From assembly GCA_025435555.1 (NCBI GenBank), contig JAIWWG010000043.1, positions 1 through 64,000 of the forward strand: a stretch of DNA of 64,000 nt. The letters are read 5' to 3'. This stretch comes from Chytriomyces cf. hyalinus JEL632 (lineage: Eukaryota > Chytridiomycota > Chytridiomycetes > Chytridiales > Chytriomycetaceae). Made by a program: the position numbers and the translations under genes. Below the pieces are notes generated by a model. It did no database searches. It was not told the origin of the DNA and worked only from the letters and a program-made list of their open reading frames with translations. This document shows positions 6,973 to 40,091 of the stretch, piece after piece. Numbering within the stretch: position 1 is the stretch's first letter; each line of letters begins with the position of its first letter.

Positions 6973-7631
6973 ATAGGCAATAATCCCGCAAGAAAGAGTA
7001 TCCAGGAGCCTCTCGACATCCACAAACACCTGCTCAAGAGAATCGAGAGTCACCCCACCACCACCACCACCAACAAAGGTATCAACAACACCCCCTGCCC
7101 CATTACCACCAGTACCACTACCCTGCACGAGAAAAAGTCCATTCAACTCCAAATGTGAGAATCCAGACGCATCAATTATCGCATCACAAAAGTCCGACGT
7201 TACACAAGCCCCGAGCCATCAACCGTCGTTGCCATCATCTGCCCGACTTCTACCGCAACTGCCGCCACTGCCACTGCTTCAATCATCAGCAGCACTTGCT
7301 GTGTTGCGGTGGTGGTGGTGGTATCCTCAGTCTCTACTGTTGTGCTCGCGAATGCAGACACAACGGGCTGCTGCTGCTCGCTATGCTGTGTGTCCAACCA
7401 AGCAACACAAGATACAGCGTCCCTGCCCAACTCATTCCTCATCTCAGCCACCATCTGAGCATGCAGAGAATCAATTTGTTGTCGGTCGGAATGTGCATTG
7501 AAAAGGGCGTCGAGTTCGAGGAAAAACACGTCCAAGTCTGAAGGGATTTCGGCGTCGCCTTTCCTTGCTGCTTGGGTGGTGGTGGGAGTGGACGTTGTGG
7601 TTGGATATCTCTTGCGTGGATGTCTGGGCAT
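6973..7631 (-). CDS. FEELL-family protein A
   Basis: Unrecognised protein of the paralogous array. It starts MPRHPRKRYPTTTSTPTTTQ, a basic, Thr-rich stretch, then KGDAEIPSDLDVFFLELDAL and LHAQMVAEMRNEL, the family's N-terminal block. The first frame stops at 7200. The C-terminal end reads on in another frame (SDFCDAIIDASGF...VFVDVERLLDTLS) down to 6973, so either an intron or a frameshift lies near 7210. Its tail (VFVDVERLLDTL) is a diverged version of the family's NFEELLDAF end. No signal peptide or membrane segment is seen. Function unknown. Confidence 0.55.
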
Positions 7632-8835
7632 GTTGGTGCGTTGCTTGGAAGGGGGTTGGATGGGGATGGGGGATGCTTGGCTCTCAGTAAATAAAAAGTA
7701 GTTTTTGTTTCCCAAACTGGTCAGATTTATTTATTTTCAGCAACAAATTTGGTTTGTCCTCACTAATACTACTGGTCGCAGCAAAGCAAAAGATGGAAGA
7801 CTGGTTCGCGAGCATTGTGAACAGTATTGAGTGGGGCGTCCCGTGTGTTGAGCGCGCGAGTTTAAATTGGAATAGATTCTGGTCTGGGTGGTATAATTCA
7901 GACGAGATGGAGAGGAGACAACAGCAGCCTATTGCATCCACACTCGCTGATTTGAATTCACAAATACGCGTTATTTGAAGGAAACGCGCTGTCAAAAAGA
8001 TCCCCCCCCCCCTCCCCCCCACTTGTTCTCGCACATCCATAGACCAATCTTGCTCTTCGACATGCATCAACGACCCCACCGCCTTGTCCCCCCTTGTCAA
8101 GTAAGATCCAAGCATGAATATTATGGCAGGCACTGTCTTTAGCCCCACGTTCCACCAGTTCAGCAGACCAAAAAACAATTTTTCTTCACAGTCTCGACCC
8201 GCCACCCGGTTGTGAAGCTGCCTCTCACCTGCACTGGCGTAACCAACAGTTGTCATCTCCATCAGGTGTCATTGTGCGTATACACAGCGCGCAAAGCATC
8301 GCCTCAAAAGGGAAGTGAGACACCACCCTGCCGCATGTCACACGTCGTCCAAATGGTTGGAATATTGGGCAGACCCAAGTAGATACATCACACCATCACT
8401 CTCGTAGGTGTTGTACAACAAGATGGAATGCTCTCGGGTGTTTTTTTTTTTTGCAGTGACACTGTTTGTTTTGGTGAGTCAGATTTAAAATTTTGATGAA
8501 AGGGGGTAATCTTATTTTGCATGCGTGGATTGGTTGACATGAAAAACAAACAGACCTGCACAAGAAAAAGAAGAAGAAAAATTGCGCATATCGGATATTT
8601 ATCGGACATGTATCGGACATGTCTCTGGCAGTGACGCTGTTGGACTCACTCGCTGAAAGTAAAAGTCCACCAAAAATTGCTTGGCTTTTGGAGACAATCG
8701 AAAAATTTGAAAACAAATTCTGGATGGAAAGTACGAAAATATTCCTCACTTTTTAAGTTTATACACTGATACAAACGCAACACTCTCTGTCTCACACGCG
8801 CCTGCCGCTTCCATCCACCCCCCCGCAACTTCAAA
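7632..8835. other. Intergenic region with no supported gene
   Basis: Open frames exist on both strands (a 192-codon minus frame at 7684-8262 and a 74-codon plus frame at 7754-7978), but neither resembles a family I know or the neighbouring paralogues. A C-rich run lies at about 8001-8022 and a T run at 8443-8453. It probably holds the promoter of gene A and the 3' region of gene B. Confidence 0.4.
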
Positions 8836-9594
8836 CTATACAATGTCATCTGCAGGCACTGCAGGCGTCTCGGCTGTTTCTGGTTCTCTCCGATTCTCTG
8901 GCACAGGTGTAACAAACGCCTCACTGCCATTGTCTAGCAACCCTGCATCCCAATGACCAAACATGTCCACCAACGCAGAGTTCGAACCACCCCCAAACAC
9001 ATCATCCCACGTCAACGGCAAACAGTCTGTACTGGACATTGTCAATGCACGTGCATGAGAATCCGTATCCACATCCGCGCCGTCCACCACTTCAGGCACA
9101 TGCAGACACACATCTCGAGCCGCATTCTGTCTCATCATTCGTTCTGAACTGCTGCTGCCGCTTCCGCTCACACTGGCCGTCACTCGCTCGTGTGAGCCAA
9201 ATCGGTGGTCTCTTTTTACCGGAGACACACTGTCTCTTGTTGTTCCCTCTGATCTTTCGCTCGTCACGCTGCCCGCTTTCCCCGCTGCTGCTGCTGCTGC
9301 ACGCCTTCTATGAGCAGGCATGCTTGTCGTCGTTGGTGTCGTTCGCAGCAGTTCCTCTCTCATGGCTTCCACAGCTCGTACATGAAGTGGTTGACTCCGC
9401 TCTCCATCCGCTCGTGCATTAAACATGGCCTCGAGTTCTAGGAAAAACAAATCTAGATCGCCTGGGATCTCGGCGTCTCCTCGGCGCAGTTGGGGTGGTG
9501 GTTGTTGTTGTTGTTGTTGTTGTTGTTGAATTTGTTGTTGTTGGGTTTGGATGGGATTGGGTCGGGTATTTCGTTGGGTTGGGTGACGTGGCAT
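8836..9594 (-). CDS. FEELL-family protein B, polyglutamine form, without the C-terminal tail
   Basis: A 252-residue single-exon member starting MPRHPTQRNTRPN. A Gln-rich stretch (positions about 18-31, a CAA-repeat tract) precedes the conserved block GDAEIPGDLDLFFLELEAMF, then RSQPLHVRAVEAMREEL. The middle has the family's CLH motif (VCLHVPEVVDGADVD). The usual FEELL ending is absent; instead the protein ends ..AETPAVPADDIV, with WDDVFGG and ALVDMFGHWD further upstream as possible acidic-hydrophobic equivalents. It is Ser/Thr/Ala-rich and probably disordered apart from the helix block. Function unknown. Confidence 0.7.
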   Translation of the reverse strand: MPRHPTQRNTRPNPIQTQQQQIQQQQQQQQQPPPQLRRGDAEIPGDLDLFFLELEAMFNARADGERSQPLHVRAVEAMREELLRTTPTTTSMPAHRRRAAAAAAGKAGSVTSERSEGTTRDSVSPVKRDHRFGSHERVTASVSGSGSSSSERMMRQNAARDVCLHVPEVVDGADVDTDSHARALTMSSTDCLPLTWDDVFGGGSNSALVDMFGHWDAGLLDNGSEAFVTPVPENRREPETAETPAVPADDIV

Positions 9595-10633
9595 GTTTGG
9601 AGATTGCGCGAACAGAGTCGGCTGTTGTGGGTGGGGGTATACTCGAGGGGGACTGTTGTTGGTCGTTTAAGAAGAAAGTTGGCTTGGGTTTTGTGCTTTT
9701 GTGGGAAAACAAAAAGCGTCTTGAACTCAAAATTTGCTGCGAATGAAACTTGACGCACGACCCCTTGGGGGGACTGCCCAAAATAAAATAATAAAAAATA
9801 AACATTTTGCTTGGCAATGAAATCAACATTAGGTAAGAAATAAACAATAATTACAAATATTTGCTGCGTCAGATCTGATGACTGATCATTACTTTCTTGC
9901 GCTTCTCTCACACAAATGATTTGGCACCCCCCAAGCTACGCTACCCTACCAGCGATACATTCAGTCCAGGTCCAGGTCTGACAAAACACGCCCATCACTA
10001 CCGATTGATTCTACTGTGCAAGGACGAGTCAAGTCAAGCACGCGCGCTGCTCCAACCTTTCTTTTTTTTTTATTTTTTTATTTATTGGGATCAAGTGTGC
10101 TGTGCTGGCGGATTGGGGAAGATAATGAAAGATTGGAACATTCAGCATGGATGCGCAAAAAAATCCCTGAAATGGTGTGCAGGCACCAGGTTGCGAGATT
10201 TTTTTTTTGCTTATAAGAGAGAGAGATCATTATGAAAAAAACACACGCACACACCTGTGGGCGAAGAGAAAGTCGGTGAAGATAGTTCATTGAGCAAGTC
10301 AAGGCAAAAGGGGGGTTTCAACTTGGTAAAAAGGGGTGATGCGATGCGCACTGCAGCGGGATCTGTTCGAAATGTGTAACCAAACAGTAAAAAAATTAAC
10401 ATGAAAATTTATATCCCCCCCTCCAGCATGCCGGACCCAAACAAACAAAGTGACCGTTCTTGCGCATCTCAGTCATCTCACCAATGCAAACACAGATACG
10501 CCAATTATAAAAAGAGAGTTTATTCCGAAATGTCACTGACAAAAACAGGTATATGGGAGGAAAGAAAAATAGAAAAAAAACACACAACGCGCGCTTCTGA
10601 AAAGATGTAAAAGATGAAAAAAAAACGCCTTCA
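9595..10633. other. AT-rich intergenic region, no gene recognised
   Basis: About 1 kb between paralogues B and C. It holds T and A homopolymers (for example 10060-10080 and 10200-10209) and several TATA-like stretches, but no open frame resembling a known protein or the array's conserved blocks. Confidence 0.5.
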
Positions 10634-11215
10634 TCAAGCAGTGCAACCGGGAATAAACGGCAGTCCCTCAAGAAGCTCTTCAAAATTCGAAAACGACACC
10701 CACAACGGCTCCGATACCTGCACCCATTCAAGAAGCACGGCGGGACAATTCTCGGCGGCTCCTCGGTCTAGAGTCATTGTGTCTATTTTGTCCGATCGGT
10801 TCAAAACCGGCGGACTCCGGCGTTTTGGATCGGCAGCAGAAGCAGCAGCAGTATTTAGACACACGATGGAGGTATCCAACTTGTCGCGGCGGCCGCCGCC
10901 GCCGCCGCCAACGATAAACGAGGCAGCATCTATTGAAGAAGTGCTGCTCGAGAAGCGTCGCTTTTCCCGTCGCAGTTGTTTACGCAGGTCAGCCATGGCG
11001 CGCTCGTGGAGAGGTTGCAGCCGAGCCCGGTCAATGAGTGTTTTAGCCATGGCTTCCATCTCGAGAAACAAGAGTTCCGTGTCGGATGGGATCTCTGCGG
11101 TGCCTGGTCGCTGTGAAGCTGAAGTGGAGTAGGGCTGCTTGCGGTGGTGGTGGAGGTGGTGGGTACGAGTGGGATAGATGGATGTCGTTGTTGTTGATGG
11201 GATATGATTGGGCAT
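10634..11215 (-). CDS. FEELL-family protein C
   Basis: A 193-residue single-exon member starting MPNHIPSTTTTSIYPTRTH (His/Thr-rich, basic). The family block reads GTAEIPSDTELLFLEMEAMA, then DRARLQPLHERAMADLRKQL. A Gly run (VGGGGGGRR) lies in the middle. The end, FSNFEELLEGLPFIPGCTA, is the family tail in a slightly diverged form. The CLH motif is reduced to VCLN. Next to genes B and D on the same strand. Function unknown. Confidence 0.72.
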   Translation of the reverse strand: MPNHIPSTTTTSIYPTRTHHLHHHRKQPYSTSASQRPGTAEIPSDTELLFLEMEAMAKTLIDRARLQPLHERAMADLRKQLRREKRRFSSSTSSIDAASFIVGGGGGGRRDKLDTSIVCLNTAAASAADPKRRSPPVLNRSDKIDTMTLDRGAAENCPAVLLEWVQVSEPLWVSFSNFEELLEGLPFIPGCTA

Positions 11216-11929
11216 GGTGGGACAGGGGGTTGAGTTGGACATGCAAGCAAGGTCAGAATACAAAACAGTTCTCTCTCAAGACCGTGTTCTTTATTTATAC
11301 GCAATAAAAAAGAGTGAGTAAGCACCAAGTAGGGTTGAGTTTGTCACCGCGTCTTACTGAGCACAAATGTTCGGAAATTTTTGTGAAATGCTTAGTCATC
11401 CATCCATCCGTATGCTGCGAGATCTGGCGTGCAGTAACCATACGATGCATTCAACGGAGCAGTAGAGACGATGAACGGTTACCGAGCGATGGCGCTGCTG
11501 CTTGCTGTGTCCCGTTGGTCAAGTGCTGCTTCAAACGCATACATCAGTGTGACTCATCCTGTGTCTGCATGATTCGAAATTTCACTTTGAAAAAATTTAT
11601 AAAGATAAACAATGTTCATAAATACATGCCAAAAAAGATAAAATAAATACATAACTTGGATAAACTCTTTAACGCGCGTTCTTTGCAGTTAATGCTCAAT
11701 TTTGATTGGTCAAATTCGGGTTTTGGAAACTTTGAGAGATATCCGCGAGACTCATTGGACTCTGTGAAACTGCGACTGTTCACGTGACCTCATATCTGCT
11801 TTGTTCCGAAGACACTTGCTGATTTCTATAAAAAATTTAATAATTGCACATCCACAAATAATACTAAAAAGGATCATCATAAAAAGAGAAGAGATCATTC
11901 AAAACAGGATCTATAAAGTTTGGATCTCA
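11216..11929. other. Intergenic region, no gene recognised
   Basis: About 700 bp upstream of paralogue C. AT-rich, with no conserved block of the array and no recognisable protein. Confidence 0.5.
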
Positions 11930-12504
11930 TCAGAAAAGGGTGGAAACGCGTCCAACAGAGTCTCAAAATTTTGAAAATGCAGAAAAAAGCTCACTTGAGT
12001 TTGTGGAACCACTCGTCATCAACTGAGGTTGATTAAAATGAAAAGAAATGCGTAGAATCGGGCCGTAAAAAGTTGACAGCCCAAAGAGTGGTTGCTGCGT
12101 TCATCTCGTGAACCACATTTGGCTCATCCAAATTCTTCAACCACGGCGAGCACATGAAGGCAAATCGACATGAGCGGGGTCCAGTCCAAGCCCTTGCTGC
12201 CTGCCAATCAGCGCTTCACGAAACGCGGGCATCGCGTGTATACTGATGCTGCCTCTCATTCATCAACACTCGTTTTCATGTCTGCCCTCGACCCACGAAT
12301 GCAAACGCTGCAACCCGTCGCCGTCATTGTGTGCCATACAAAGCGCGAAGCGCGCATCGACTTGAAGAAAAAAAAAGACAGTTCAGTGTCTGACGGGTCG
12401 CCCTTCTTTGTAAGTGTGAGATGATGTTGTGGCTGTGTGGGCGTGGTAACCACCGTGGATTTGCGGGATTTGGCGCGCGCATTTTTATTTTGTCCTTTCA
12501 ACAA
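11930..12504 (-). pseudogene. FEELL-family copy D, decayed
   Basis: Remnant most like gene F. The N-terminal block is broken (KKGD..PSDTELSFFFFK), with a deletion removing the LELEA part and a shift of frame. The C-terminal tail still reads LHFQNFETLLDAFPPF near 11935-11985, in another frame. The intervening DNA aligns with gene F over several hundred bp (for example the segments around 12005-12055 and 14025-14075). No continuous frame joins the pieces. Confidence 0.7.
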
Positions 12505-12698: not shown

Positions 12699-13232
12699 TC
12701 AAGTCGCCGGCGGAAAAGGAAACGCGTTCAACAGTTCCTCAAAGTTGGAAATGCTCACATCATCTGTTTCAGGGAACTCCACTGGGTCCATGCCATGTCT
12801 TGTGGCATCGCCATCATTATCCATGGTATCACGACTGCTCAGGGTTTGTGGAATAATGGTTGCACCGACTGAATGAATGGGTAAAAAAATATTGTTTCCA
12901 ATTCGTCTTCCTCGGCGGCCACCATGAAAGAAAATATGTGAGAACAAGTCCTGCGTTTGAATTCCCACGACTCTCCATCAGCACACCCGCAGCAAACATT
13001 AGACACATTCGCAGAGAAAGTTTTTGTCCGATATCACGTGGCAACCGCTGCTGAATCAGCAACTCATGCTGCACTTGCGCCACTATCCGCGAGTGCAAAA
13101 GCTGTAGTCCAGCCGCATCAGCTCAATGTCGGTGGGGACCTCAGCGTCTCCCTTCCTGCAGGGGGATGGTGTTTGCAAAGAGTGCGTGACAGTTTGGCGT
13201 TGGTGTTCACGCTCGGGTACATGGCGCGTCAT
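12699..13232 (-). pseudogene. FEELL-family copy E, decayed
   Basis: A decayed duplicate of gene G. It starts MTRHVPEREHQRQ, then KGDAEVPTDIELMRLD; the rest of the helix block is deleted and the frame closes near 13085. Further homology continues in other frames (LHSRIVAQVQHELLIQQR, then PQTLSSRDTMDNDGD, ending SISNFEELLNAFPFPPAT at 12699). Gene G ends NISNFEELLNAFPLFPAT, so the relation is direct. Confidence 0.75.
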
Positions 13233-13964: not shown

Positions 13965-14507
13965 TCAGAAATGAGACGGAAGCGGAAACGCGTCCAACAG
14001 ATCCTCAAAGTTTAAACAATGCATAAATTCAATTGAGTTTGTGAAACCACTTGTCACCAACTGTGGTTGATTAAAATCAACTGCGGGTATCAAAGAGTTA
14101 ACAGCACAAAGAGTGGTTGTTGCGTCTACTGGCAGCAACGCTTGAAGCACAGTTGGTTCATCCAATTCCTCAACCTCTGCTGGCACATGTAAACAAACAG
14201 ACAAGAACGGGTCCGGCCCAAGCTCAACCGGGTCCATCGAATCTTTGCTCGCCAAAACTCGCGTGTCGCTTCTCTGCTGCCGCTGCCGCTGTTCAATCAT
14301 AAGCTCGTGCTGCTCTTGTGCCACGACGCACGAATGCAAATGCTTTAGCCTGTCGCCGTCCATGCGCGCCTTGCATAGTGCCTCGACTTCAAGCAAATGT
14401 AGCTCAACATCGGAGGGTATTTCTGCGCCTCCCTTCTTGCGGATACCGGCTCTTGCAGGTGTGCGGACATGGCCGTTGGTTTGTAGGAAATGGAATTGTC
14501 GTGGCAT
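13965..14507 (-). CDS. FEELL-family protein F
   Basis: An intact 180-residue member. The start at 14507 (MPRQFHFLQTNGHVRTP) was chosen because the family begins with M-(P/T/R)-R-x. The block KKGGAEIPSDVELHLLEVEA is followed by DGDRLKHLHSCVVAQEQHEL, then a Gln/Arg-rich linker, the CLH motif (VCLHVPAEVEELDE) and the tail CLNFEDLLDAFPLPSHF. No introns, signal peptide or membrane segment. It is the probable parent or sister of pseudogene D. Function unknown. Confidence 0.78.
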   Translation of the reverse strand: MPRQFHFLQTNGHVRTPARAGIRKKGGAEIPSDVELHLLEVEALCKARMDGDRLKHLHSCVVAQEQHELMIEQRQRQQRSDTRVLASKDSMDPVELGPDPFLSVCLHVPAEVEELDEPTVLQALLPVDATTTLCAVNSLIPAVDFNQPQLVTSGFTNSIEFMHCLNFEDLLDAFPLPSHF

Positions 14508-14825: not shown

Positions 14826-15392
14826 TCAGGTCGCCGGGAAGAGAGGAAACGCGTTCAACAGTTCCTCAAAGTTGGAAATATTTAAATAATCTCTTTCAGT
14901 GAACCCTATTGGGTCATAGCTATCATTATCCGTGGTGGTATCAAGGCTGCTCGGTGTTTGTGGTATCGGCGTGGATGTGGTTTCGCCGGCTGAATGATCG
15001 GATAAAAAGATTGCTTCCAGCTCGTCTTCCTCGGCCGCCACGTGAAGACAAATATGTGAGAGCAGGTCGTCCTGGGTTTGAGATGCAGTGCTTTGTTGCT
15101 GATAGCTAACATCCACATCCGCAGCAGCATTAGATACATCCTCAATGGAAGGTTGGCCGATATCGCGCACTCGCTGCTCAGCCACAAGCTGATGCCGCAC
15201 TCGCGCCACTATCCACGCATGCAAAGCTCGCTGTCTGTCGCCGTCAATGCGTGCCTTGAACCGTGCCTCAATCTCCAGCCGTATCAGCTCAACATCAGAG
15301 GGGATCTCAGCGTCTCCCTTCTTGAGGAACCCAGCTCTTGCACGGATACGTGATGGCCGCCGGTGGTTACGCGCGGGTACATGGCGCGTCAT
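14826..15392 (-). CDS. FEELL-family protein G
   Basis: An intact 188-residue member starting MTRHVPARNHRRPSRIRARA (strongly basic). The block KKGDAEIPSDVELIRLEIEA is followed by KARIDGDRQRALHAWIVAR, the CLH motif (ICLHVAAEEDELEAIF) and the tail LNISNFEELLNAFPLFPAT. The ATG at 15392 is preferred over a longer in-frame ATG at 15476 because the MTRHVP start is shared with copy E. Function unknown. Confidence 0.78.
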   Translation of the reverse strand: MTRHVPARNHRRPSRIRARAGFLKKGDAEIPSDVELIRLEIEARFKARIDGDRQRALHAWIVARVRHQLVAEQRVRDIGQPSIEDVSNAAADVDVSYQQQSTASQTQDDLLSHICLHVAAEEDELEAIFLSDHSAGETTSTPIPQTPSSLDTTTDNDSYDPIGFTERDYLNISNFEELLNAFPLFPAT

Positions 15393-15883: not shown

Positions 15884-16477
15884 TCAAGTCAGAGAAGCGT
15901 GAGGAAAATGGTTCAACAGTTCCTCGAAACTGGAAAACGATATTACGTCAATTGAGCTTGCAGCACTGGTGCTTGTCAAGTCTGGTTCAAAAGCGTTATT
16001 TTGAAAGGCATTGCTGCCATGAACGGCGCTGGTGCTATGCTCAAAGAGTCGGTTATGGCTCACGTCATTGGTCGCCGGAAGTTCGGAAGAAAAGACCGCG
16101 TCCAAATCTTCAACATTTGGCTTGTGCAGGCAAACACGCCACCGCGCATCCTGTCCATCTTGTTGATCTTGTTCGTTTTGCTCTTCTTGCTTGTCTTGCT
16201 CCGCATTCGACTTGCCAGAATTGACACGTACAGAACCAACGTATCCCAAGTCTTGCGCAACCGTGACGTCCAATCCTCTCTCCTTCACTAGTTGCTGTCG
16301 CATTTCCGCTACAATGCGCGAGTGCCACGTCTGCCGTTTTTCACGGTCTTGTCGCGTCTTGAACACTGCTTCGAGTTCAAGAAACGAGAGTTCAACCTCC
16401 GTGGGTATCTCAGCGTCTCCCTTGTGCATGGATTGGCGGACATGGTGGCTTCGGTGTGTCGGAACAGGGCGCCTCAT
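15884..16477 (-). CDS. FEELL-family protein H
   Basis: An intact 197-residue member starting MRRPVPTHRSHHVRQSMHKG. The block KGDAEIPTEVELSFLELEAV is followed by DREKRQTWHSRIVAEMRQQL. A Glu/Gln/Asp-rich stretch (QDKQEEQNEQDQQDGQD) precedes the CLH motif (VCLHKPNVEDLDAVF). The tail is SFSSFEELLNHFPHASLT. The transposon island begins 39 bp upstream of the ATG, so its original promoter has been displaced about 16 kb away. Function unknown. Confidence 0.78.
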   Translation of the reverse strand: MRRPVPTHRSHHVRQSMHKGDAEIPTEVELSFLELEAVFKTRQDREKRQTWHSRIVAEMRQQLVKERGLDVTVAQDLGYVGSVRVNSGKSNAEQDKQEEQNEQDQQDGQDARWRVCLHKPNVEDLDAVFSSELPATNDVSHNRLFEHSTSAVHGSNAFQNNAFEPDLTSTSAASSIDVISFSSFEELLNHFPHASLT

Positions 16478-16619: not shown

Positions 16620-17049
16620 ACTCCTTTTTACTAAAAAATGAAGCTGTTCTGAAGCTCAATACTTTTTCGATTCTGGTTCAATCAGAAAAAGCGTTTATGA
16701 GCGCATGACACTTTCGCGCATTTCAAATACGTATGAGATCCTTTAAAAAAATAAAAGATGACTGGAAGCGACATCACATGGATGATGTGGCTTTATTATT
16801 GTGCGCGCAACACAAAACTGGAATTTTGTCGATATTCGATCCGCGCAAAACTTATTTCCGCACACCACCAAACTGTACGCGCAAACACAGACCCAGCACC
16901 ATCCCACCCCCCAAAAAATCCGAAAAAATAGGCATTCGACTCGAAATGCTAATGGCAACACCTCAGAGCCAAAGAACGCTCAATTCGGGTGAGATCGAGT
17001 CAACTGAACGTTCAAGTAATTCTGTTAATAATCATTCTGGCCCCAAGGC

Positions 17050-18081
17050 ATGCCAACACCTTCACAGGACACCAATGAGCGCATTGCTGAAGAGCAGGAT
17101 GAAAACAGGCTGCCGGATTTGCCTGCCCAAATTGGACTTTACCAAAATGCTGTCTGCCTCTGTCCCCGCGAGTTTATTGGACAGCAAATCCCACCGCAAG
17201 CAGCTATAGCTATCGAATCCCACTCAATGGACGAATTTCGAACCAAACTCTATGACGTTGTTCATCCATTCATGTTTCGAGAAATTCTGATGCAAGCAAA
17301 TGGAGAACCAGCATGGGCTTCGGATTCAATTGGCCACCTTTCGATTGATACCATGGATACGTTTGTCCTTGTCAGCGAATCTTCAAGTAAACGGAAACCC
17401 ATCCCTTTGGCTGATTTAACAGTTCCACTGCTGGTTGCTTGGAAGTCACCAAAATCTATCACAGTGTTTGTCCAGAAGTACTCAAATGCAATGATCAACA
17501 GCGCGACATTTAAAAAGGCGCATAAAAGCTGCTGAAGCCTCTGGAAGTTGATCGAGCGCAAGCAGCAAGTGAAAGCGCTTTTAGTGACACAGTGACCACA
17601 CTCAAGGAGATCCATGGAACCCGATATGTTGCTGCAGATGTCCATTGGGGCATGTGGGCAAACGAAATTGTAGCGGGAGATGCGCATCTTATTGATTGTG
17701 CTGTCAATAACCCTCCTCCGATGCACCTGATGCAGTTCTTTCGATCTGCATTAACGGAACCAGCAATTCACATTCAGATGAGCAGACAAGCAAATCTTGT
17801 TGCTATAAATGAGAATGCCCGTATCCTTGCAGAGCTGGAAGAAATTCTTGAAAGTCAACTTTCAACAAAACGTGCACTTGAAGATTCAATTACTCGCACG
17901 AAATATTCAATTGCGAACAACAAAGTACGCAGTGCCATTCTGGAGGACTTCAGTTTGTCTTTGGACCCTCAAGAAAATGAAGGATCTCGAAGAATCCGAT
18001 CACGCATTGGAAACAGAGATGATGTTGACCATGCTGAGTAAATTTCAAGAACATGCTGAGATAATGAAGCTTTACTCTTGA
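17050..18081 (+). pseudogene. IS630-1 accessory gene, unknown protein, one or two frameshifts
   Basis: Starts MPTPSQDTNERIAEEQDE. Readable segments are FRTKLYDVVHPFMFREIL, LADLTVPLLVAWKSPKSI, VFVQKYSNAMINSATFKKAH, then (after a shift near 17530) LLKPLEVDRAQAASESAFSD, TTLKEIHGTRYVAADVHWGM and a helical end (LEESDHALETEMMLTMLSKF..MKLYS, after a second shift near 17970). No known family comes to mind. A homologous gene lies in the same relative place in IS630-2 (24427-24905), which shows it belongs to the transposon. It overlaps the transposase 3' end. Function unknown; a DNA-binding or helper role is a guess. Confidence 0.6.
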
Positions 18082-19157
18082 TTGTCTTCAAATCCATTAA
18101 AAGAAGACAGTGGAACATTGAAACCAGTTGCTGCGTTAAATCCCCTCTCTGAGTACCCGCACTTTGAAAATAAATGTTTTAAGGAATAATCACGGAATTT
18201 CTCTAACACTGTCGATACAATAAAGAGAATATCCTTGTGCTTATTCGCATCACGACTTTTTTCCATTTGCCGCTTGACCATTCCGAACAAAAGTTCAATT
18301 GGATTGAAGAACGGGCAATAAGCAGGGAGGAAGATGACCTTGACACCCAAGGAACGGAGGTAGTAAACAATGTTTTTGTCTGTGTGAATTTTCGCACCGT
18401 CCATGATCCAAAGTGAATGTGGTCCAGGAAAGCATTTGACTGCACCATTCAAAGCACATGTTCGACATGCGTTAACAAACTTAGTACGATCGAAAGTTCC
18501 TTCTGTGCTGCAAACTTCAACAATGCCTTGAAGTCCAATGAAGCACAGGAGAGACACACGGGGTTTTCGAACAAATTCCCCAACGTAGACAAGAGATTCG
18601 CCCCTTTTCCCCCATCCTTTTGAAGCGAGCATATCCCGATTATCAAATGAAACTTCGTCCAAGAAGAGAAGAGACTGGAGAAGCCAGGGGAATGACATGA
18701 GTTCAGTGCTGAAGCGAATGACGTCAGCATTGCAGATTTGTATTGCCCGCCGTTCAAGCACTTTCCAGGATAGTCCAGCCTCTTTAAGGATAATGCTTAT
18801 AGATGCAGCACTGATTGTGCTGCCTGGATAGCGCAGTGCATATTTCGATTTCGCTTCGGAGAGGTGCATAACTGGCCTTTTCTGAAATTGGCCCACAACC
18901 CAGGCACGGCGCTCTGGTCCATGACGCACGTATGCCGTTACCCTTGCTTTCCGTACAGCTCCTCTGCCTTCTTCATATTGCAGTATCCAATCAGAGATTG
19001 TGGAGGGCGCCTTTCCAAAGAGGACCGACAGTTTCACTTTCGAGACGTTCTGGTAGTAGTACATGTAGAGGCAGTGAAAGCGGACCTCTTCAGTCGCATG
19101 CTGACCTTTAACGGTCTGGAGGATATCCATGCTTTCGATTCTGTCTTCCCACTGCAC
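18072..19157 (-). CDS. IS630/Tc1-like DDE transposase, intact
   Basis: A 361-residue open frame with no stop. The N-terminal part is a helix-turn-helix (VSKVKLSVLFGKAPSTISDW, then PGSTISAASISIILKEAGLSW). The catalytic core has LFLDEVSFDNRDM (first Asp), HSLWIMDGAKIHTDKNI (second Asp) and LPAYCPFFNPIELLFGMVKR (Glu), the DDE_3-type pattern. It would cut and rejoin the element's TTGTGCG ends at TA. Of the transposase genes in this region, this is one of three whose catalytic frame is unbroken. Confidence 0.9.
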   Translation of the reverse strand: MQWEDRIESMDILQTVKGQHATEEVRFHCLYMYYYQNVSKVKLSVLFGKAPSTISDWILQYEEGRGAVRKARVTAYVRHGPERRAWVVGQFQKRPVMHLSEAKSKYALRYPGSTISAASISIILKEAGLSWKVLERRAIQICNADVIRFSTELMSFPWLLQSLLFLDEVSFDNRDMLASKGWGKRGESLVYVGEFVRKPRVSLLCFIGLQGIVEVCSTEGTFDRTKFVNACRTCALNGAVKCFPGPHSLWIMDGAKIHTDKNIVYYLRSLGVKVIFLPAYCPFFNPIELLFGMVKRQMEKSRDANKHKDILFIVSTVLEKFRDYSLKHLFSKCGYSERGFNAATGFNVPLSSFNGFEDNQE

Positions 19158-19243
19158 TTTTGCTGTTTATTATGCGTGCGCGGATATAGAAATCCCTTTT
19201 TCTGTACCCGCAAAATTCCAGTTTTTCATTAAACGCACAATAT

Positions 19244-20458: not shown

Positions 20459-20626
20459 CTCTGTAAAGTGATCATGGTGATTACTGAACAAAATAGAGGA
20501 ATAATAAAACATGTGTGCAGATACTGTATTGAAAAAGATCATCATTTCATCTCTGGCAAGCTCCCTTTGGTTATTCGGTGAAGTGCTTCCATAAAAGCAA
20601 GTTGCATTGTATTCCGCCTTTCTTCA

Positions 20627-22590: not shown

Positions 22591-22600
22591 ATGATCAGTG

Positions 22601-23191: not shown

Positions 23192-23239
23192 TCAATCCTT
23201 TTTCGATTTTCTTGCCGATCAGCCTTTATAAACTACCCC
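23192..23239 (-). repeat. Right inverted end of Harbinger-1
   Basis: Reverse complement GGGGTAGTTTATAAAGGC at the border, followed by TAA. Confidence 0.72.
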
Positions 23240-23259
23240 TAATTTCCCCCCACCACTCA

Positions 23260-24306: not shown

Positions 24307-24426
24307 CTTGTACTCAGGTTTATTTGTAAGATCAACAATATAGTCCAGCCCAAGTTACATGTGGTCAACATCTTCTTGCAATCCCACTCTGGCCAGCAAG
24401 TCCAAACTGTTCCCAACCTCCCAAGG

Positions 24427-26804: not shown

Positions 26805-26859
26805 TTGTCAGATGTTGTTGACTATTCGCTGCTCAAATAGTAAAACATAAAATCCATTT

Positions 26860-26894
26860 TTGACATTTGACCTGGAAGGCACATGAATTTCAAA
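26860..26894 (+). repeat. Left arm of the outer GGAAGGCACA element
   Basis: TTGACATTTG..GGAAGGCACATGAATTTCAAA; inverted match at 32501-32533. Confidence 0.7.
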
Positions 26895-26938
26895 CTTTAT
26901 TCTTTTCTTTAATAATAAATAAATGATTCTCTTTTCTG

Positions 26939-27880: not shown

Positions 27881-28188
27881 GACATGGACAGGTAATTGAA
27901 ACAGAATAACCCTCGTTGTCAGTTCTTCATTCTCTTTATTGTTCCAACCATCACCATCACCAAACTGTGTCAAAAGAGTTCATGTGATGAACGTGGCTAG
28001 ATCACAAGCTCATGTGATGTACATGTGACGTAAAACGAGCAGTACTGTAACTAATCAATCACCACATGAACTAATCAATCACCACATGAATATGAAAATT
28101 TTCAAAGGTACATTGAGCTGAATTCCACTGAAGTTCATGAATCCACTTTTTGAGGTTTGCACATTTTTTAGGCAACATGGCATATTCT

Positions 28189-28203
28189 GGAAGGCACACG
28201 AAT
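28189..28203 (+). repeat. Left inverted end of the inner element
   Basis: GGAAGGCACACGAAT. Confidence 0.75.
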
Positions 28204-28262
28204 AAAAAAAATAAAAAATAAACACGCTTAAAAAATAAAACCTGCTATTTATTTCCCAATCA

Positions 28263-29234
28263 CTAAAGAAGCCTCTTGCTTAAATCATAAAGTGGCTGCC
28301 GTCTCAGTTTCACTTGCGTGATTTGAGCGACAGCTTTAAAAATTCTAGCATGGCTGTTACGATCGGATCGAAAAAGGGAGGTGAGAATGTGAAAATCTTT
28401 GAACCTTCTGTTCACAGTTTCATGGCGCGCCCCCATCTCTTTCAAATTGTGATTATGATTGGCATTTGCCATACTTGTCACAGGAACTCTCATCATCAGA
28501 CGAGGATCTCCAATGTACCCCTGGTCAGCTGCTACCTTTTCGTGTGGCTCAATGTGCTTCAGCAGTGTCTGCCTCACTAATGTGAGGTCTGGATACTTCC
28601 CACAGGGCACACCACCACCCACATAGACAATTTTGCTGGTTCCCAAAGCCACTGCCACTTGGTACCTGTAACCAGCTCTCTTGAACTTGTGGCTAAACAG
28701 ATCCTTATCCAAAGGCCGTGCTTCCGAGACCATCATGTCCACCCCATCAACGTAGCAGGATGGCTGTGTGCAGCTCCAGTGCTCAAACCGATCCTCAAAA
28801 TGGATCTGAATTTAAATAAAGCAAATTTTAAAGTTTTGTAACAAAATTTTTGTGCAACAGAAAAATTTTACCTCATCCATGAAACCAAAACAGCTGATGC
28901 TGTAAAACACCTTGTCCCTCCAGTTGCTTTCAGATGTGTTGAACTTGGCAGCAGCGACTGCCTCGGTGGGATACACCTTGAGGTAATGGAGAGCCCAAAG
29001 GTAGTGGATCTTGAGCAACCGGTAGTTCTTGAAAAATTTTTCGACAATCAGCCACACATCGACTGCAGAGAGGATAGTCAGGCCAAAGTGGGCAACAAAG
29101 CGGCGGTCCCAAAGGTCTCGGTGGCGGTGGTAGGACAGAGCAGACTTGCCAATGTGGGGAGAAGCAAGTTTGATGAAAGAGCCAAGGAGCTCATTCCAAA
29201 TGTGTGAAGGTGTGTACTGAAGAGACATGATCAA
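28263..29234 (-). CDS. IS5/Harbinger-like DDE transposase, intact, two exons
   Basis: Exon 1 29234-28872 starts MIMSLQYTPSHIWNELLGSF; intron 28871-28806 (GTAAAA..TTCAG); exon 2 28805-28263. The join is in frame and gives 301 residues. Core motifs: PSCYVDGVDMMVSE (first Asp), HKFKRAGYRYQVAVALG, VAADQGYIGDPRLM (second Asp) and HETVNRRFKDFHIL (Glu). The layout is of the DDE_Tnp_4/IS5 type. It is divergent from the accessory gene at 29901. Confidence 0.85.
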
Positions 29235-29900
29235 GAAAGTCGAAAAAAGGCTGTCTTTGTATACTGGTAAAGATCAATGCTGTAACAACCATCAACGTGA
29301 TTTGCGCGTGACTTTGTGAGGGAGAATGCACTGAAACATGGGCTTGTTCAAAAAAATTGTGCAAAATTATGTAAGAATTTTGGTCATGCCAAAAAACTGT
29401 AACGCAGATCAGCCAATGTCAGCTGATGTGCAAAAAAATTTTGCAGTGAATCGGTGAAATCAGTTCATCTGAATTCATTCATGTTTTGCCACTCTCTACA
29501 TCCATAAACTGTTTCTCAGTGAATTGGATGAACGTGTGAATGAATTGGTGAACAAATATGAACCCAACTGCACAGAGTCACATATTGTAACGGTTCACAA
29601 GTTTGAACCATGAAAAAAAATTGGTGCACCAGTTCAGTTGAAAAAACACTGGCGCAGTTCCAGTGTTGTCTGAATAAATTCACTAAAATCACTAAAATCG
29701 GGTTCACAAGTATTCACTGTTTGATTTCCCAAAGTTGATGTGTTCATTCAGTGGCACCAACTGCATCTGAACAAGTCCGCTAATCTTTAAAAATTTTTTA
29801 TTAAAAAAAGCCGAACACACAATTTTTTGTTCCCATGCACTATAAAACCACTGCCTTTCAGTACCAACTATTCCATTCATTCCAACAAACAATCCTGATA
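29235..29900. promoter_or_regulatory. Shared upstream region of the two divergent transposon genes
   Basis: About 670 bp, AT-rich, with no gene; it must hold both promoters. A TATA-like CACTATAAAACC lies at about 29837-29848, 50-60 bp before the accessory ATG. Short repeats around GTTCA/TGAAC and GAATTCATT are frequent between 29460 and 29740. Confidence 0.45.
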
Positions 29901-30948
29901 ATGAGACGCAGCAGAGCTGAGCTACTTGGCAACCCTGACTGGAGACCCGAGCATGACATTGCCCTGTTCAAGTACCTCAAGGCCCAAGATGACGGCACCA
30001 AAACTGGCTCCCATGTCAAGCAAGCCATTCCTGCCCTCGCTGCTTTTCAAGCGCCAGTCCTTAACTCAAAAATCAGGACCATTCGCAAGAAGATCCATGA
30101 TTATGGTGATTGTAAGTAGAAATTTTTATTCAAAAATCTTAAAATTTTTCGATCCAAATGTTCTAAAATGCGGTTACATTCAAACAGTGTATGATCCACA
30201 GGCAGACAGCAAGCCCATGGATCTTTCTAGTCACCATTCACTGCTCTCTAGCAGTGGTGAGGATGGGCCTGGTGATTTAACTGGATCTCCAATCACCCCC
30301 CGGTTGACCCCACAAGGCCTACACTCCACTCCTGGTGCTCCACCGAGCCTCCAAACTAGTCCCCCAGGCATGCAAGACATTCGTCGACTGTCTGGATTGG
30401 TACCTGGATCAATCAAAAGGGTCAAAGTTGAAAGTCCATCAAAGTCTGGTGTAGTGGACTCCATGGTCTATACCAAGCCAGTCATCAAGGCCTCCCCAGT
30501 CCTGTCCACACTCCGACTCCATGAGCTGATGCGATTCAAAGATGACAAAACTGGTCTGCATCATGTGCAGATCATCTTCAAGATTCTCACTGACCATGAA
30601 ATGGATTTTGATGTGTCATCAGACGGGAAGCAACTGGTGTACACTCTGACTCCAAAAACAGTTGCTGCCATTGACTTTATTGATCCCAGACACTCCGACA
30701 TAAGCCACCCTCCCACCACTGCCATTGTGCAGTATTTTCACAATGATCCTGGCACAGAAGAATTCACTTACACCATCACACTTCCTGAAGCTGTGGACTC
30801 AAACTGCATCAGCAAGAGATCTGTTTACAGAGCCATTCACACTACTGACCTTGCTGGGCGCCCAGTTACCATAATGCAAGCTGTTGCCAAAGTTCTGGTG
30901 TACATGGTTTCTGGTCAGCGCAGTGGCAATCGCGAGAGCGACTGGTGA
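29901..30948 (+). CDS. Accessory protein of the inner IS5/Harbinger-like element
   Basis: Exon 1 29901-30111 (MRRSRAELLGNPDWRPEHDI), intron 30112-30187 (GTAAGT..AACAG), exon 2 30188-30948; the join is in frame and gives 323 residues. The N-terminal part (YLKAQDDGTKTGSHVKQAIP, KIRTIRKKIHDYGD) looks like a small helical, possibly DNA-binding, module. A Pro/Ser-rich linker follows. The C-terminal domain (LRLHELMRFKDDKTGLHHVQ, YTLTPKTVAAIDFIDP, FTYTITLPEAVDSNC, VAKVLVYMVSGQRSG) is unknown to me. A second copy is at 31432. Confidence 0.72.
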
Positions 30949-31032
30949 AAAAGGGTTCAACAATTTTTTTTTTTTTTTGTGAATGTGAATGAGTCATGAA
31001 ATATATGCAGTGCCTATCTTTATTTATCTCAT

Positions 31033-31047
31033 TCGTGTGCCTTCCTG
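31033..31047 (-). repeat. Right inverted end of the inner element
   Basis: ATTCGTGTGCCTTCC, the exact complement of the left end. Confidence 0.75.
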
Positions 31048-31431
31048 CAAGAATGCCTGCATGCATCCATGAATAAACTGTGAACACGAGCTTAGAGATC
31101 ACAGATTCATCCAAGTTCACAATGTCTCAATTTAAAATTTTTATTTTAAATAAGTTACAATGACAAAACAGCAGTGTGGTTACAAAGTCATCCATTAAAA
31201 AGCATTCACGCCATACTGCTGGCGTTCATGAGTATTCACCCTTTGTATTTTTTGAATTTGAAAAAGGTGCAAACTGAATTCATGAATTCACTGACTGTGT
31301 GATCAAATAAAGAGACAAATGATCAAATGAAAAAACAAAAAAAACAAACAGATTAAAAACAAGCCCCCATCACCGGTTTCAGACTTGCTTGCTATATAAA
31401 CTGCTCTTTGCGCTGTTCTTTTGTGCACACA

Positions 31432-32405
31432 ATGAACAGACCAAAGGCAGAACTTGGTGCCTGAGACTGGAACAAACAGCATGAATCTCTTGTCTACACC
31501 TACTTGAAAGAGCATGATGACGGGAAAAAGACAGGCACCAATATCAAAGAAGCAGTTCCAACTCTCAAAGCCTTTCAGGCCCCATGCTGAATGCAAAAAT
31601 TCGAAGCGTTTGCCAAAAAATTCAAGATTATGGAGATGGCAAGTACAATTTTCATTACACAAAAATGTTATTACACAAAAAATTGTTAGATTTTTTGTTC
31701 AATTTATTTCAGCATACAAGCATGCCAATGGACTTGTCCAGCTATCACTCCAAACCTGAAGATGAAGATTCCGACGCCGAGCCTGTCCTTCCTCCACCAC
31801 ATGTTGCATTCCCTGTTATGTGTCATGACCCCAGCCAAGCCTCAGTTTCCACTCTAGCTAAGCCAAACAAGCGCCAGAAGCCTGAGAGTCCCAAGAAAAC
31901 AACTTTTGTGGATGCCAACATGTATACCAAAGCTGTTGTGAGAGCCACACCTTTTGTGTTGACCTTACGCCTCCATGATCTCATGAGGTTCATGGATGAA
32001 AACACAGGGTTGCACCATGTGCAGATCATTTTGCATATTGTGACTGATCACGAGATCACGTACAATGTCACGGCTGATGGCAAGCAACTCATGTACACAG
32101 TCAAGCCCAAGACTGTTGCAGCAAGAAGCTTTGTGGATCCAAGTCACATGAACTTCAACTATGCCCCAAACCAAGCCATTGTCCAAAACTTCCACAATAA
32201 CCCTGGGACAGAGGAGTTCACATACACAATCACCTTACCTGAGGCTGTTGGCTCCAACTGTATCAGCAACAGATCAGTCTATTGGAAGGTTCAAATCACT
32301 GATACCAGTGGAGATCAAGTTCAAATTCTCCAGCCTGTTGCCAAAGTGTTAGTCTACATGGTCTCGGGTCAAAGAAATGGAGATCGTGAAAGTGACTGGA
32401 CATAG
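31432..32405 (+). pseudogene. Accessory gene of the outer IS5/Harbinger-like element, broken exon 1
   Basis: Homologous to 29901-30948. Exon 1 starts MNRPKAELGA and then has a TGA at codon 11 and a one-base loss in FQAP.LNAKI (about 31587). Exon 2 is fully open: TLRLHDLMRFMDENTGLHHV, FTYTITLPEAVGSNCISNRS, VAKVLVYMVSGQRNGDRESD. Clean exon 2 and damaged exon 1 suggest recent decay. Confidence 0.75.
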
Positions 32406-32500
32406 TGGACTTTATCGCTTTGACAGCTGTTTGTTCCCAGCTGTTTTTTTTTTTTTTGGGGTATACCAATCATCAAAAGTAAATATGAGTTTCTGTTTTA

Positions 32501-32533
32501 TTTGAAATTTGTGTGCCTTCCTGCAAATGTCAA
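32501..32533 (-). repeat. Right arm of the outer GGAAGGCACA element
   Basis: Reverse complement reads TTGACATTTG, then GGAAGGCACACAAATTTCAA. Confidence 0.7.
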
Positions 32534-33077: not shown

Positions 33078-33870
33078 AGAAGGGGCGGAAACGCGTCAAA
33101 CAACTTTTCAAGTACCTTGATCTTTCAGTCGCCCGTTGATATAAATCGGTCTGGGGCTGTTGATGCTGCTGACCATAATCACAACGCGGGAGCCAGTCCA
33201 ATACTCGGTTTCTTGGACTTGCAGCAACGCGTGCAAGTCGACTCGGTCGGTACCGCCTGAGGATGGATCATTGGCCAATTCCACAGTTCTAGGATCGAGC
33301 TCTGCCCCGTGCAGATAGATAGACAGACAGACATCCGTCAGCGCAGTCTGGCCTTGCGCCAGTTGCTCGGCACCATGCCCCGGAGATATGTTGCTAGCTA
33401 TGCAGGAACTTGTGAGATGGCTAGAATTAATTGAGTGTTACATAATTGTGGCAGTGAGAAAGCCAACAGCCCGACTGACTTACCTAAACTGGTCGGGTAG
33501 AGTGCAACGTAACTGGGGACCAAACCATGTGCTAACCGAAGCGCGCATCGGACGTAAAACGGGGTCATCTATTTCTAATTGTTCCCTCATTTCAGCCACG
33601 GACAGTGTATGTAGCGGTTGGTGTCCCGGTGAGCGTGAACATTGCAGCGTGCCTCCATTTCAAGAAACAGCAGCTCCGAATCTCGGCATCCACTTTTCGA
33701 GACTACGGTTTTGCCAACACACCAACACACTGGCATTTCGAGCTCGTTATCGGCGCATAGGCAAGAGACACGTGATAGAGACCGTATGCGTTTTGAAGGC
33801 ACTTCAAGAGGTTGGTTATTGGACAGAGGGATGAAGAGTCTTTGAGATGCGTCGAGATTCACCATGTTTT
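33078..33870 (-). pseudogene. FEELL-family copy I, decayed
   Basis: The left end encodes EKLFDAFPPLLHW (minus, about 33070-33110), matching the family tail EELFDAFP, but the segment before it has lost several bases. The helix block survives as SELLFLEMEARCNVHAHRD near 33640-33690; KGDAEIP is lost. Upstream DNA (33760-33830) still aligns with the start regions of genes J and K. No open frame joins the parts. Confidence 0.68.
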
Positions 33871-34319: not shown

Positions 34320-34952
34320 TCAGTGGAAAGACGGGTGCGGAAACGCGTCAAACAACTCTTCAAAATTCGAAAAAGAAACCGTTTCAATCCCATGTGTAAC
34401 ACCGACGACACTAATCACTCCATTGCGGTTAATATTGTTGAACTCATGGTTGGTGTAGTCTGGAATTTGATTTACTGCTGGGGCTTGCAGCAGCAGCGGG
34501 TGAGTCTCAACAAGGTCGACAGCACCTACAAGCGCATTCATCGGCCAATTCCACTGCTGAGGAAACCAGATTGGTCCCAAATCGTTGATCGCCGCTGCCT
34601 CGTGGAGGATAGCATCCGTCAGCACAGACTGGCCTTGCGCTTCTTGCTCGGAAGAATCCCTGGCTGGGAGCATAGCGGCATCGAACGGGAAAGGGTCAAT
34701 GGAGCCCAGCATCAACCACTCCTTATCCAGTTGCTCCCTCATTTCAGCCACGAGTTGGTTGTGAAGAGGTTGGAGTCTTTGGCGGTCGGCGTGAACCTTG
34801 CGACGTGCCTCGATTTCAAGAAGAACCAACTCCTTATCAGTTGGAACCTCGGCATTTCCCTTTAACGTGTAAGGTTTTGCCAGGACACGGGGTTGGCGGA
34901 CTCGTTGGCGGTGCAGCGGCAAGAGACGCGTGAAGGAGGCAGTAGTATGCAT
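34320..34952 (-). CDS. FEELL-family protein J
   Basis: A 210-residue single-exon member starting MHTTASFTRLLPLHRQRVRQ. The block LKGNAEVPTDKELVLLEIEA is followed by HADRQRLQPLHNQLVAEMRE. The CLH motif reads AILHEAAAINDLGPIWFP. The tail is VSFSNFEELFDAFPHPSFH. It is the closest relative of gene K: both have VLAKPY before the block and LGPIW.P..WNWPM in the middle. Function unknown. Confidence 0.78.
   Translation of the reverse strand: MHTTASFTRLLPLHRQRVRQPRVLAKPYTLKGNAEVPTDKELVLLEIEARRKVHADRQRLQPLHNQLVAEMREQLDKEWLMLGSIDPFPFDAAMLPARDSSEQEAQGQSVLTDAILHEAAAINDLGPIWFPQQWNWPMNALVGAVDLVETHPLLLQAPAVNQIPDYTNHEFNNINRNGVISVVGVTHGIETVSFSNFEELFDAFPHPSFH

Positions 34953-36469: not shown

Positions 36470-36499
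<30 letters not shown>
36470..36499 (+). repeat. 30-base poly-G run
   Basis: An uninterrupted G run. On either strand it opens long poly-Gly or poly-Pro frames that are artefacts. Confidence 0.97.
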
Positions 36500-37633: not shown

Positions 37634-38227
37634 TCAAGGAAGAGCCGGAAGCGGAAACGCGTCAAACAACTCTTCAAAATTCGTAAAAGACACCAAGTCA
37701 ATCTCACTCGTGACACTGATACTCATTGATCCGCTGTTGCTGATACTGTGGGCCATGTTGCTACCGCAGTCCGAATCTTGTTGGCTCTCGGCTTGCAGGA
37801 AAGTGTGAAGGTCGGTAGCACTTGAGGTTAAATCCATCGGCCAGTTCCACAGTTCAGGGATCCAGATGGGCCCCAAGATGTCAATCGCAACAGCCTCGTG
37901 GAGGCACAAGTCCAACAGTGCTGCCTGGTTCTGCACTACTTGCTCGGAAGAACCACTGGCTCCGAGCATACCAATGTCAGTCGCACCAAAGACACGCATT
38001 AAGCGCTCCTTTTCAAGTTGTTCCCTCATTTCAGCCACATATCGCGTGTGTAGAGGCTGGAGTCTTTCACGGTCAGCGCGAACCTTGCGACGTGCCTCGA
38101 TTTCAAGAAGCAGCAGTTCCTCGTCAGCAGGAATCTCTGCATCTCCCTTCAGGGAGTAAGGTTTTGCCAAAACACGTGTTTGTCGGACCCGTTGGTCTTG
38201 CTGCGGAATGACACGGCGAGTTTGCAT
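37634..38227 (-). CDS. FEELL-family protein K
   Basis: An intact 197-residue member starting MQTRRVIPQQDQRVRQTRVL. The block LKGDAEIPADEELLLLEIEA is followed by ADRERLQPLHTRYVAEMREQ. The CLH motif reads LCLHEAVAIDILGPIWIP. The tail is VSFTNFEELFDAFPLPALP. Acidic/hydrophobic C-terminus, basic N-terminus. Function unknown. Confidence 0.78.
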   Translation of the reverse strand: MQTRRVIPQQDQRVRQTRVLAKPYSLKGDAEIPADEELLLLEIEARRKVRADRERLQPLHTRYVAEMREQLEKERLMRVFGATDIGMLGASGSSEQVVQNQAALLDLCLHEAVAIDILGPIWIPELWNWPMDLTSSATDLHTFLQAESQQDSDCGSNMAHSISNSGSMSISVTSEIDLVSFTNFEELFDAFPLPALP

Positions 38228-39487: not shown

Positions 39488-39518
<31 letters not shown>

Positions 39519-39641
39519 TACCCAGTCAATAAATGTCCCCAGATTGAGCAAAGGTCCATAATATACAAAACACAGCTTTTTGACGGTGTGTGACTCATCT
39601 TGAGTGCACAGAAAACCTTGAGATCCAAGAACGTGGAAACG
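38228..39641. other. Intergenic region with microsatellites
   Basis: No gene recognised. A plus frame at 38492-38857 (121 codons) and a minus frame at 38651-38977 are open but unlike anything I know. Simple repeats lie at 39389-39520. Confidence 0.45.
39389..39520. repeat. TTTCTA/TTTTA microsatellite and GA-repeat tract
   Basis: TCTATT units followed by TTTTATT units at 39389-39445, then a purine tract ending in (GA)n at 39478-39519. Confidence 0.9.
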
Positions 39642-40091
39642 TCATACAGGCTGCTGAATCGGCCGTCCAACGCCATCTGGCGCCCTCTGACTGCTCACGC
39701 CAGTCCCACCAACCTCCGCATCCATGCCCACAACTCCAACTTGACTCTGTCCCGGCACAGGTACAATCTCGGGCGAAGTTGACCCATCTGAACTCGTCGT
39801 TACATCTGTGTCGGTATAGATTCGTTCTCTTCGCAAGACAGCCTCCTTCTCCCGATCCAGTTGGTTGCGCATATCCAGCAGCGCCTGTGCAAGTAGGGGT
39901 TCTTCGCGCGCTCTGTCGCTCATTGCGTTAAACTCAGCATCCAGTTCGAGAAAGAAGAGTTGCATTTCGTCGGGCAGCTCGGCGTCTCCTTTACGGGCTT
40001 TGTGTCTGAGCATGCGGTTACGGTGCTGCTGTTGATTCTGTTGCTGTTGATGGCTGTGGGTCTGTCGTAGGTGGCGCTCTTGTGGTTGCAT
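39642..40091 (-). CDS. FEELL-family protein L, short form without the tail
   Basis: A 149-residue member starting MQPQERHLRQTHSHQQQQNQ (Gln/His/Arg-rich). The block RKGDAELPDEMQLFFLELDA is followed by SDRAREEPLLAQALLDMRNQ, a clear match to the family. The protein then ends ..VGRPIQQPV without the FEELL tail or the CLH motif. Either the C-terminal part lies in an unseen exon, or this member, like B, lacks it. It is the last array member on the right. Confidence 0.68.
   Translation of the reverse strand: MQPQERHLRQTHSHQQQQNQQQHRNRMLRHKARKGDAELPDEMQLFFLELDAEFNAMSDRAREEPLLAQALLDMRNQLDREKEAVLRRERIYTDTDVTTSSDGSTSPEIVPVPGQSQVGVVGMDAEVGGTGVSSQRAPDGVGRPIQQPV

Follow-up and report, generated by a model that had tools for sequence, protein, structure and literature searches.

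A tandem family of small helix-block proteins in Chytriomyces cf. hyalinus, with a C-terminal motif that resembles acidic activation domains

Results

Chytriomyces cf. hyalinus is a saprotrophic chytrid, and the window considered here, a stretch of 64,000 nucleotides, comprises positions 1 to 64000 of contig C181 in the JEL632 assembly (37.8 Mb, 242 contigs). It carries a tandem array of genes for small proteins that share a basic leader, a conserved helix block and, in most open copies, a FEELL-type C-terminal tail. A preliminary description of this DNA had placed twelve minus-strand copies between 6973 and 40091, with D, E and I decayed; searches with nine members against the window (tblastn) recovered all twelve, all on the minus strand, with nine open (A, B, C, F, G, H, J, K and L) and with stops, frame changes or other decay in each of D, E and I. 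The coordinates first given stood for most copies, but the ATG of copy C lies 27 bases upstream of the claimed start (11242, not 11215), and the array, although it has copies at both ends of the range, is not continuous, because about 16.8-32.5 kb is mostly nested transposons.

Copy A (6973..7631) has two exons (about 7631-7209 and 7104-6973) and corresponds to P0011 (BJ741DRAFT_650784, 186 aa). Copy B (8836..9594, 252 aa) combines a Q-rich leader and the block with an LVDMFGHW stretch in place of the FEELL tail. The remaining open copies are C (10634..11242, 202 aa), F (13965..14507, 180 aa), G (14826..15392, 188 aa), H (15884..16477, 197 aa), J (34320..34952, 210 aa), K (37634..38227, 197 aa) and L (39642..40091, 149 aa), the last of which possesses the block, lacks the tail and has as its nearest relatives the dispersed short members on contigs C221 and C226. 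Similarity between copies exceeded chance (in tblastn, K versus J, E 6e-63; K versus H, 5e-23; G versus F, 1e-24). The weakest copy was D (11935..12414), F-like and with stops and several frames, whose best match was to F at an E of 3e-4; E (12702..13232) is G-like and interrupted by stops and frame changes, with its FEELLNAFPFP tail still readable (E 7e-19), and I (33086..33785) is J/K-like (E 2e-9).

The leader spans 19 to 46 residues and carries a net charge of +4 to +9 in all nine open members, as had been claimed, while the part after the block is acidic in all nine (net -3 to -20). The block, likewise anticipated and present in every open copy, opens with a G-D-A-E-I-P-S-D cap followed by a predicted helix. 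In an alignment of 37 members, L41, E42 and A45 (K numbering) were invariant, D52 was conserved in 36 of the 37 rows, and no row had a gap across residues 35-73; the exceptions within the block were a gap at 74-76 in P0018 and a one-residue insertion in P0017. Conservation over residues 35-76 of K had a period of 3.66 residues, and none of 2,000 shuffles gave a period as strong. AlphaFold2 (AF2) rendered residues 35-81 of K (37985..38125) as one helix, with a mean predicted local distance difference test score (pLDDT) of 91-95 per ten residues over 31-70 and of 86 over 71-80. Forty residues reached a pLDDT of at least 90, and the rest of the chain was mostly of low confidence (mean pLDDT 63.6; predicted template modeling score [pTM] 0.37). 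A model of P0003, a database protein with two blocks in one chain, gave long helices at 30-82 and 141-189. A helix-loop-helix hairpin was not supported, the helix being continuous in both models and the block almost gap-free. The block is common to every type of member that we observed, including the long members and the second type described below.

Naming the whole family after its FEELL tail, as the preliminary description did, overstates the case, because among the nine open copies just six (C, F, G, H, J and K) carry the tail (FEELL, FEDLL or FEELF), along with decayed E. Copy A has VERLL, B has a different aromatic and acidic stretch further inside, and L has none. The tail follows the pattern Phi-x-x-Phi-Phi-x-x-Phi-P, where Phi is hydrophobic (FEELL-x-x-F-P). 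In K it reads FEELFDAFP (residues 184-192; 37652..37678), and AF2 renders it as a short helix (185-189) with moderate confidence. The acidic linker between block and tail was 19-73% identical between the pairs compared. In the 11 pairs with a FEELL-type tail, the tail was 45-90% identical and exceeded the linker every time (for H against H', 18 of 20 tail residues and 65 of 109 linker residues were identical); with B included, the end was the better conserved part in 12 of 14 comparable pairs, K versus P0008 having been left out because P0008 is a partial database protein.

Beyond the window, K alone matched 20 places in the genome at an E of ≤0.001, three of which lie at the end of contig C238, in a stretch that repeats F-G-H with 100% identity; two further member queries matched 23 and 25 places at an E of ≤10, some of which were judged to be chance. 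Judged convincing were the array in the window, another array at C49:4.5-13.4 kb, the F-G-H copy on C238 and single short members on C221 and C226, each with leader and block and no FEELL-type tail. Adjoining these short members are proteins of 304 and 330 aa that start with the block. Just upstream of the long C221 member lies a further block-like stretch, DDAELAILERIAAERTERDR (L066/P0022, C221:149.97-150.46 kb), which the HDU81 gene model fuses to the long member. Block proteins of a second type (type II) occur in tandem on C28 (L030, C28:21701-24925) and also on C197 (L027) and, weakly, on C175 (L075); they have the block in common with the array family and differ at their C-terminal end, which carries a conserved Y/F-L-G-F-D/E. 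Weak matches on C200, C191 and C218, in which the block was not visible, were dropped, as was a match on C173 with an E of 0.66.

Searches among 5.8 billion database proteins gave 18 (E ≤0.01), 4 and 18 (E ≤1) matches, and every one whose source is named belongs to C. hyalinus or C. cf. hyalinus; the remainder are listed as the window's own. Only some 8,000 candidates sharing the most words were scored per search, and strongly diverged relatives elsewhere among the chytrids may have escaped detection; at that sensitivity, the matches bear out the earlier suggestion that the family is lineage specific. The statement that it belongs to no named family also held. None of the nine window members exceeded a Pfam-A curated cut-off. 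In the 37-member alignment, no Pfam-A family matched more than four members (best E 0.006), with the bit scores compared with cut-offs for the first member and some others all falling below. The prokaryotic NCBIfam models matched at most three of the 37 members (best E 0.003; cut-offs seen for the first member only), and sequence and profile searches of the PDB gave no convincing match (best E 0.065, 3.4 and 0.74). Among the 12 listed of 96 open-licence papers on chytrid lineage-specific tandem families, none dealt with this one by title, and no paper in that library mentioned JEL632 or combined the genome of C. hyalinus with transcription factors. The family is confined so far to one species complex, and its particular build is new.

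A second, diverged version of the locus lies on C49, which is colinear with the window in reversed orientation, with flanks that are 80-90% identical (for example, 86.8% over 4,336 bases and 88% over 2,501). Within C49:1-20000, seven clusters of matches correspond to L, J, H, a broken G-like copy plus a further fragment, G, C and A; the J match covers only the first 113 residues, the C copy changes frame ahead of its tail, and no cluster has B, K or F as its best match. The C49 interval between J and H holds no transposon nest. The 242-aa database model P0003 (C49, about 11.7-13.4 kb) joins a C-like and an A-like copy, a fusion that is probably an annotation artifact. The family of the RNA polymerase second-largest subunit occupies four places in the genome, two of which agree at 93% over 3.2 kb, so that part of the genome occurs in duplicate; C49 may be either the other haplotype or a homeolog. 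C221 and C226 were ruled out as alleles of each other, as proteins from other assemblies cluster with each of the two types and the two share only short matches.

In a tree of 39 block sequences (of 36 inner branches, 14 were starred and 12 open), A, B, H and L formed starred forks with proteins of other C. hyalinus assemblies and K grouped with such a protein at 96/72. The wider J/K group was an open fork joined by long-branched rows, C and G/F had partners only on C49, and L grouped with the dispersed C221/C226 short members at 95/89. Because subtypes group across assemblies, most of them predate the split of those assemblies, while copies come and go. Three comparisons between C181 and C49 were clean. 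In these, L had a ratio of nonsynonymous to synonymous substitution (dN/dS, NG86) of 0.20, H of 0.50 and G of 0.60, with amino acid identities of 84%, 67% and 64%, respectively. Constraint is strongest on the block, which evolves more slowly than the rest in all three (dN for block and rest, 0.017 and 0.150 in L, 0.122 and 0.211 in H, and 0.132 and 0.283 in G). Six flanking open reading frames (ORFs) were 82-91% identical in amino acids over the aligned stretches; eight had been offered, of which two had no match, and one extra 37% match elsewhere was left aside. For dN/dS, C was set aside because its C49 copy changes frame before the tail and A because it was saturated, and the J/K, F/G, C221/C226 and C197/C28 pairs, which are paralogous or unresolved, were not used. 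Tandem copies, three pseudogenes and copy-number differences between locus versions were all found, as birth-and-death expansion of a same-strand array, proposed in the preliminary description, would have it. Since matches occur only in Chytriomyces and the C49 locus has diverged with a different copy set, we regard the family as lineage specific and under birth-and-death evolution.

The array is split by a stretch of about 15.7 kb between H and I (16797..32521), made up mostly of nested DDE_3, DDE_Tnp_4 and unclassified repeats. The region from 16.5 to 34.0 kb gave at least 102 matches elsewhere in the genome when 38 of 82 candidates were scored, several of them 100% alike over 2.4-2.9 kb, and DDE_3 or DDE_Tnp_4 exceeded its curated cut-off in four of seven scanned frames (18072-19130, 20036-20458, 25177-25914 and 28263-28736). 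Two related plus-strand ORFs in repeated DNA (29953-30948 and 31584-32405; 331 and 273 aa) share the ending VAKVLVYMVSGQRxGxRESDW and had no Pfam match over cut-off; the stretch holding the first recurs on C46 and C210 with 100% identity. A perfect 15-bp repeat of 10.5 copies at 22186-22343, also within the transposon region, lies in a minus-strand ORF and encodes a run of (NTHAA)n. Elsewhere in the window, an uninterrupted run of 30 G occupies 36470-36499, and an Rfam scan of the window gave no match. The array is flanked on the left by a prenyltransferase-type gene of 4.5 kb and on the right by ordinary genes, including, by eye, those for a RhoGAP-like and a kinase-like protein. C238 is 100% identical to the window over 13.5-16.5 kb and 99.9% over 16.5-18.0 kb and has no match to 40.5-42.5 kb; it therefore parts from C181 between 18 and 40 kb. 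It also carries an insertion of 5.36 kb (L058 1498-6857; C238:101498-106857) that sits 37 bases 5' of the ATG of H, is absent from the window copy, and has short inverted ends (CACCCCC/GGCGGTG) and a TA duplication. A 494-aa frame within it, which had no Pfam match, we take to be Plavaka/CACTA-like.

Discussion

We tentatively favor, at somewhat less than even confidence, the view that the family comprises small, mostly disordered and probably nuclear regulators whose helix pairs or docks and whose tail recruits coactivators. The basic leader would direct the protein into the nucleus or onto nucleic acid. Along its conserved stripe, the helix of 40-50 residues would pair with itself, with other members or with a partner. 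The acidic linker would space the two ends, and the short C-terminal helix (Phi-x-x-Phi-Phi-x-x-Phi-P) would bind a coactivator in the fashion of an acidic activation domain. Such a family would have expanded in tandem and been kept in flux by birth and death. From this anatomy we infer the nuclear site, the pairing, the coactivator binding and any effect on transcription, and among the options raised in the preliminary description, that of a transcription regulator appears to fit it best.

The composition of the C-terminal part lends this reading some support. Of 16 proteins, 15 had the Phi-x-x-Phi-Phi-x-x-Phi motif beyond the block and 13 had it within the last 25 residues, against a background of 10.7% of shuffles and five of 27 control frames, and 12 had a p53-like composition (net charge -6; W, F, Y and L totaling 8) at some point beyond the block, versus three of 27 control frames; the 16 proteins are related, however, so that these counts are not independent, and the control frames run from stop to stop and are not all genes. 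This is one of several considerations that weigh against an activator. According to PMC10550315 (equation 1), the strict rule for an acidic activation domain calls for a 39-residue tile with a charge of ≤-9, a W+F+Y+L count of ≥7 and a balance term, and none of the 16 proteins passed it, although the same text places p53 TAD1 (-6 and 8) outside the predictor until it is phosphorylated. Under our own relaxed rule (charge ≤-6 and a W, F, Y and L count of ≥8, together with the motif), tiles often qualified in the linker, but only three of 16 proteins (C, G and P0015) qualified in their last 39 residues, and the acidity therefore lies largely in the linker. L lacks the tail and B bears its own variant further inside, and the two pairs that involve L, of the 14 compared, had no extra conservation at the end. 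Hydropathy over the block had no helical period; because conservation is periodic and hydropathy is not, the conserved stripe mixes polar and apolar residues, and a classical leucine-zipper coiled coil is unsupported. The two-block model of P0003 had a pTM of only 0.32 and thus gave no sign that its two helices pack together. Pfam scans of the family revealed no known DNA-binding domain, and exon-by-exon searches of the genome for KIX yielded only three pieces of the Med15 type, all below cut-off, with no KIX of the CBP type.

Two rivals are serious. It is possible, if clearly less probable than not, that the proteins are pure dimerization modules or dominant-negative partners that make no contact with DNA, in which case the block would pair with a larger protein, perhaps the 304- to 330-aa members on C221 and C226, and the tails would be secondary. 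That the block is the part common to all types, the long members and type II included, and that L and the short C221/C226 members have leader and block and no FEELL-type tail, would suit such modules, but the better conservation of the tail than of the linker, seen in 12 of the 14 pairs compared, and the lack of any sign of pairing in the P0003 model would not. The proteins might alternatively be cytoplasmic adaptors in selective autophagy or trafficking, with the F-E-E-L tail as an Atg8-interacting motif (AIM) and the helix docking cargo, which we consider unlikely. The core of the AIM or LC3-interacting region is [WFY]xx[LIV] with acidic neighbors, and FEEL or FEDL fits it in the six open copies with the tail, followed as these are by an acidic remainder that is disordered in the K model; yet conservation reaches beyond the four-residue core to i+4, i+7 and the proline, the tail was predicted to be helical where AIMs bind in an extended form, and the basic leader would be left unexplained.

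Of the remaining explanations, that of selfish or passenger genes with little host function, multiplied by tandem duplication and transposon-driven rearrangement, is improbable and already weakened: three decayed copies of 12, transposons within the array and the differing content of C49 are what it would lead one to expect, whereas the dN/dS values below 1 in all three clean pairs, the slowly evolving block and the presence of subtype relatives across assemblies are not. Secreted effectors or allorecognition proteins, which the preliminary description had offered as options, we regard as very improbable, since the N termini are basic and polar with no signal peptide or membrane stretch discernible by eye, most subtypes are common to several assemblies and not young, and the organism is a saprotroph; the fast linkers and the copy-number differences between the two locus versions are what would speak for them.

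If the proteins are activators, as the favored reading has it, then early-diverging fungi can build new regulator families out of one helix and a convergent activation tail, and a saprotroph would offer a small set of them open to testing. Regulators that have no recognized DNA-binding domain are easily missed, and because one genome holds the locus in two diverged versions, turnover can be measured directly. A bolder proposal, which we put forward as speculation with the odds well against it, is that the block is a new regulatory dimerization or nucleic-acid-docking helix that originated within the Chytriomyces lineage and that the array is a rapidly changing collection of pairing transcription regulators, comparable to the bZIP or KRAB-zinc-finger expansions, with sets that differ between locus versions.

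As a lineage-specific tandem family under birth-and-death evolution, the array is of a known kind, and only its build is new. It has in common with other tandem orphan families the same-strand arrangement, the pseudogenes and the presence or absence of copies between locus versions; it differs in that most subtypes are old, the block is constrained and a wider, dispersed family exists. Like bZIP and bHLH proteins, the members are small, with a conserved helical segment preceded by a basic stretch, but here the basic part is cut from the helix by G-D-A-E-I-P and the helix is continuous, with no loop. The basic region running into a heptad zipper that marks bZIP proteins was not found, there being no Pfam match and no hydropathy period, and the conservation period of 3.66 contrasts with the 3.5 of a leucine zipper. 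The hydrophobic residues of p53 TAD1 are spaced as F19-L22-W23-L26-P27, and the family tail has identical hydrophobic spacing. PMC5019370 reports that nine-residue p53 peptides activate in yeast and that the first such peptide of p53 binds KIX. The family tail has the short amphipathic F-x-x-L-L-x-x-F-P in an acidic disordered region that is typical of nine-amino-acid transactivation domains (p53 TAD1, Gal4 and Gcn4; PMC5019370 and PMC10550315), and the family differs from these in failing the strict rule, in rarely reaching the relaxed one at its very end and in having no recognizable DNA-binding domain. The resemblance of the tail to acidic activation domains is one of kind, not of descent.

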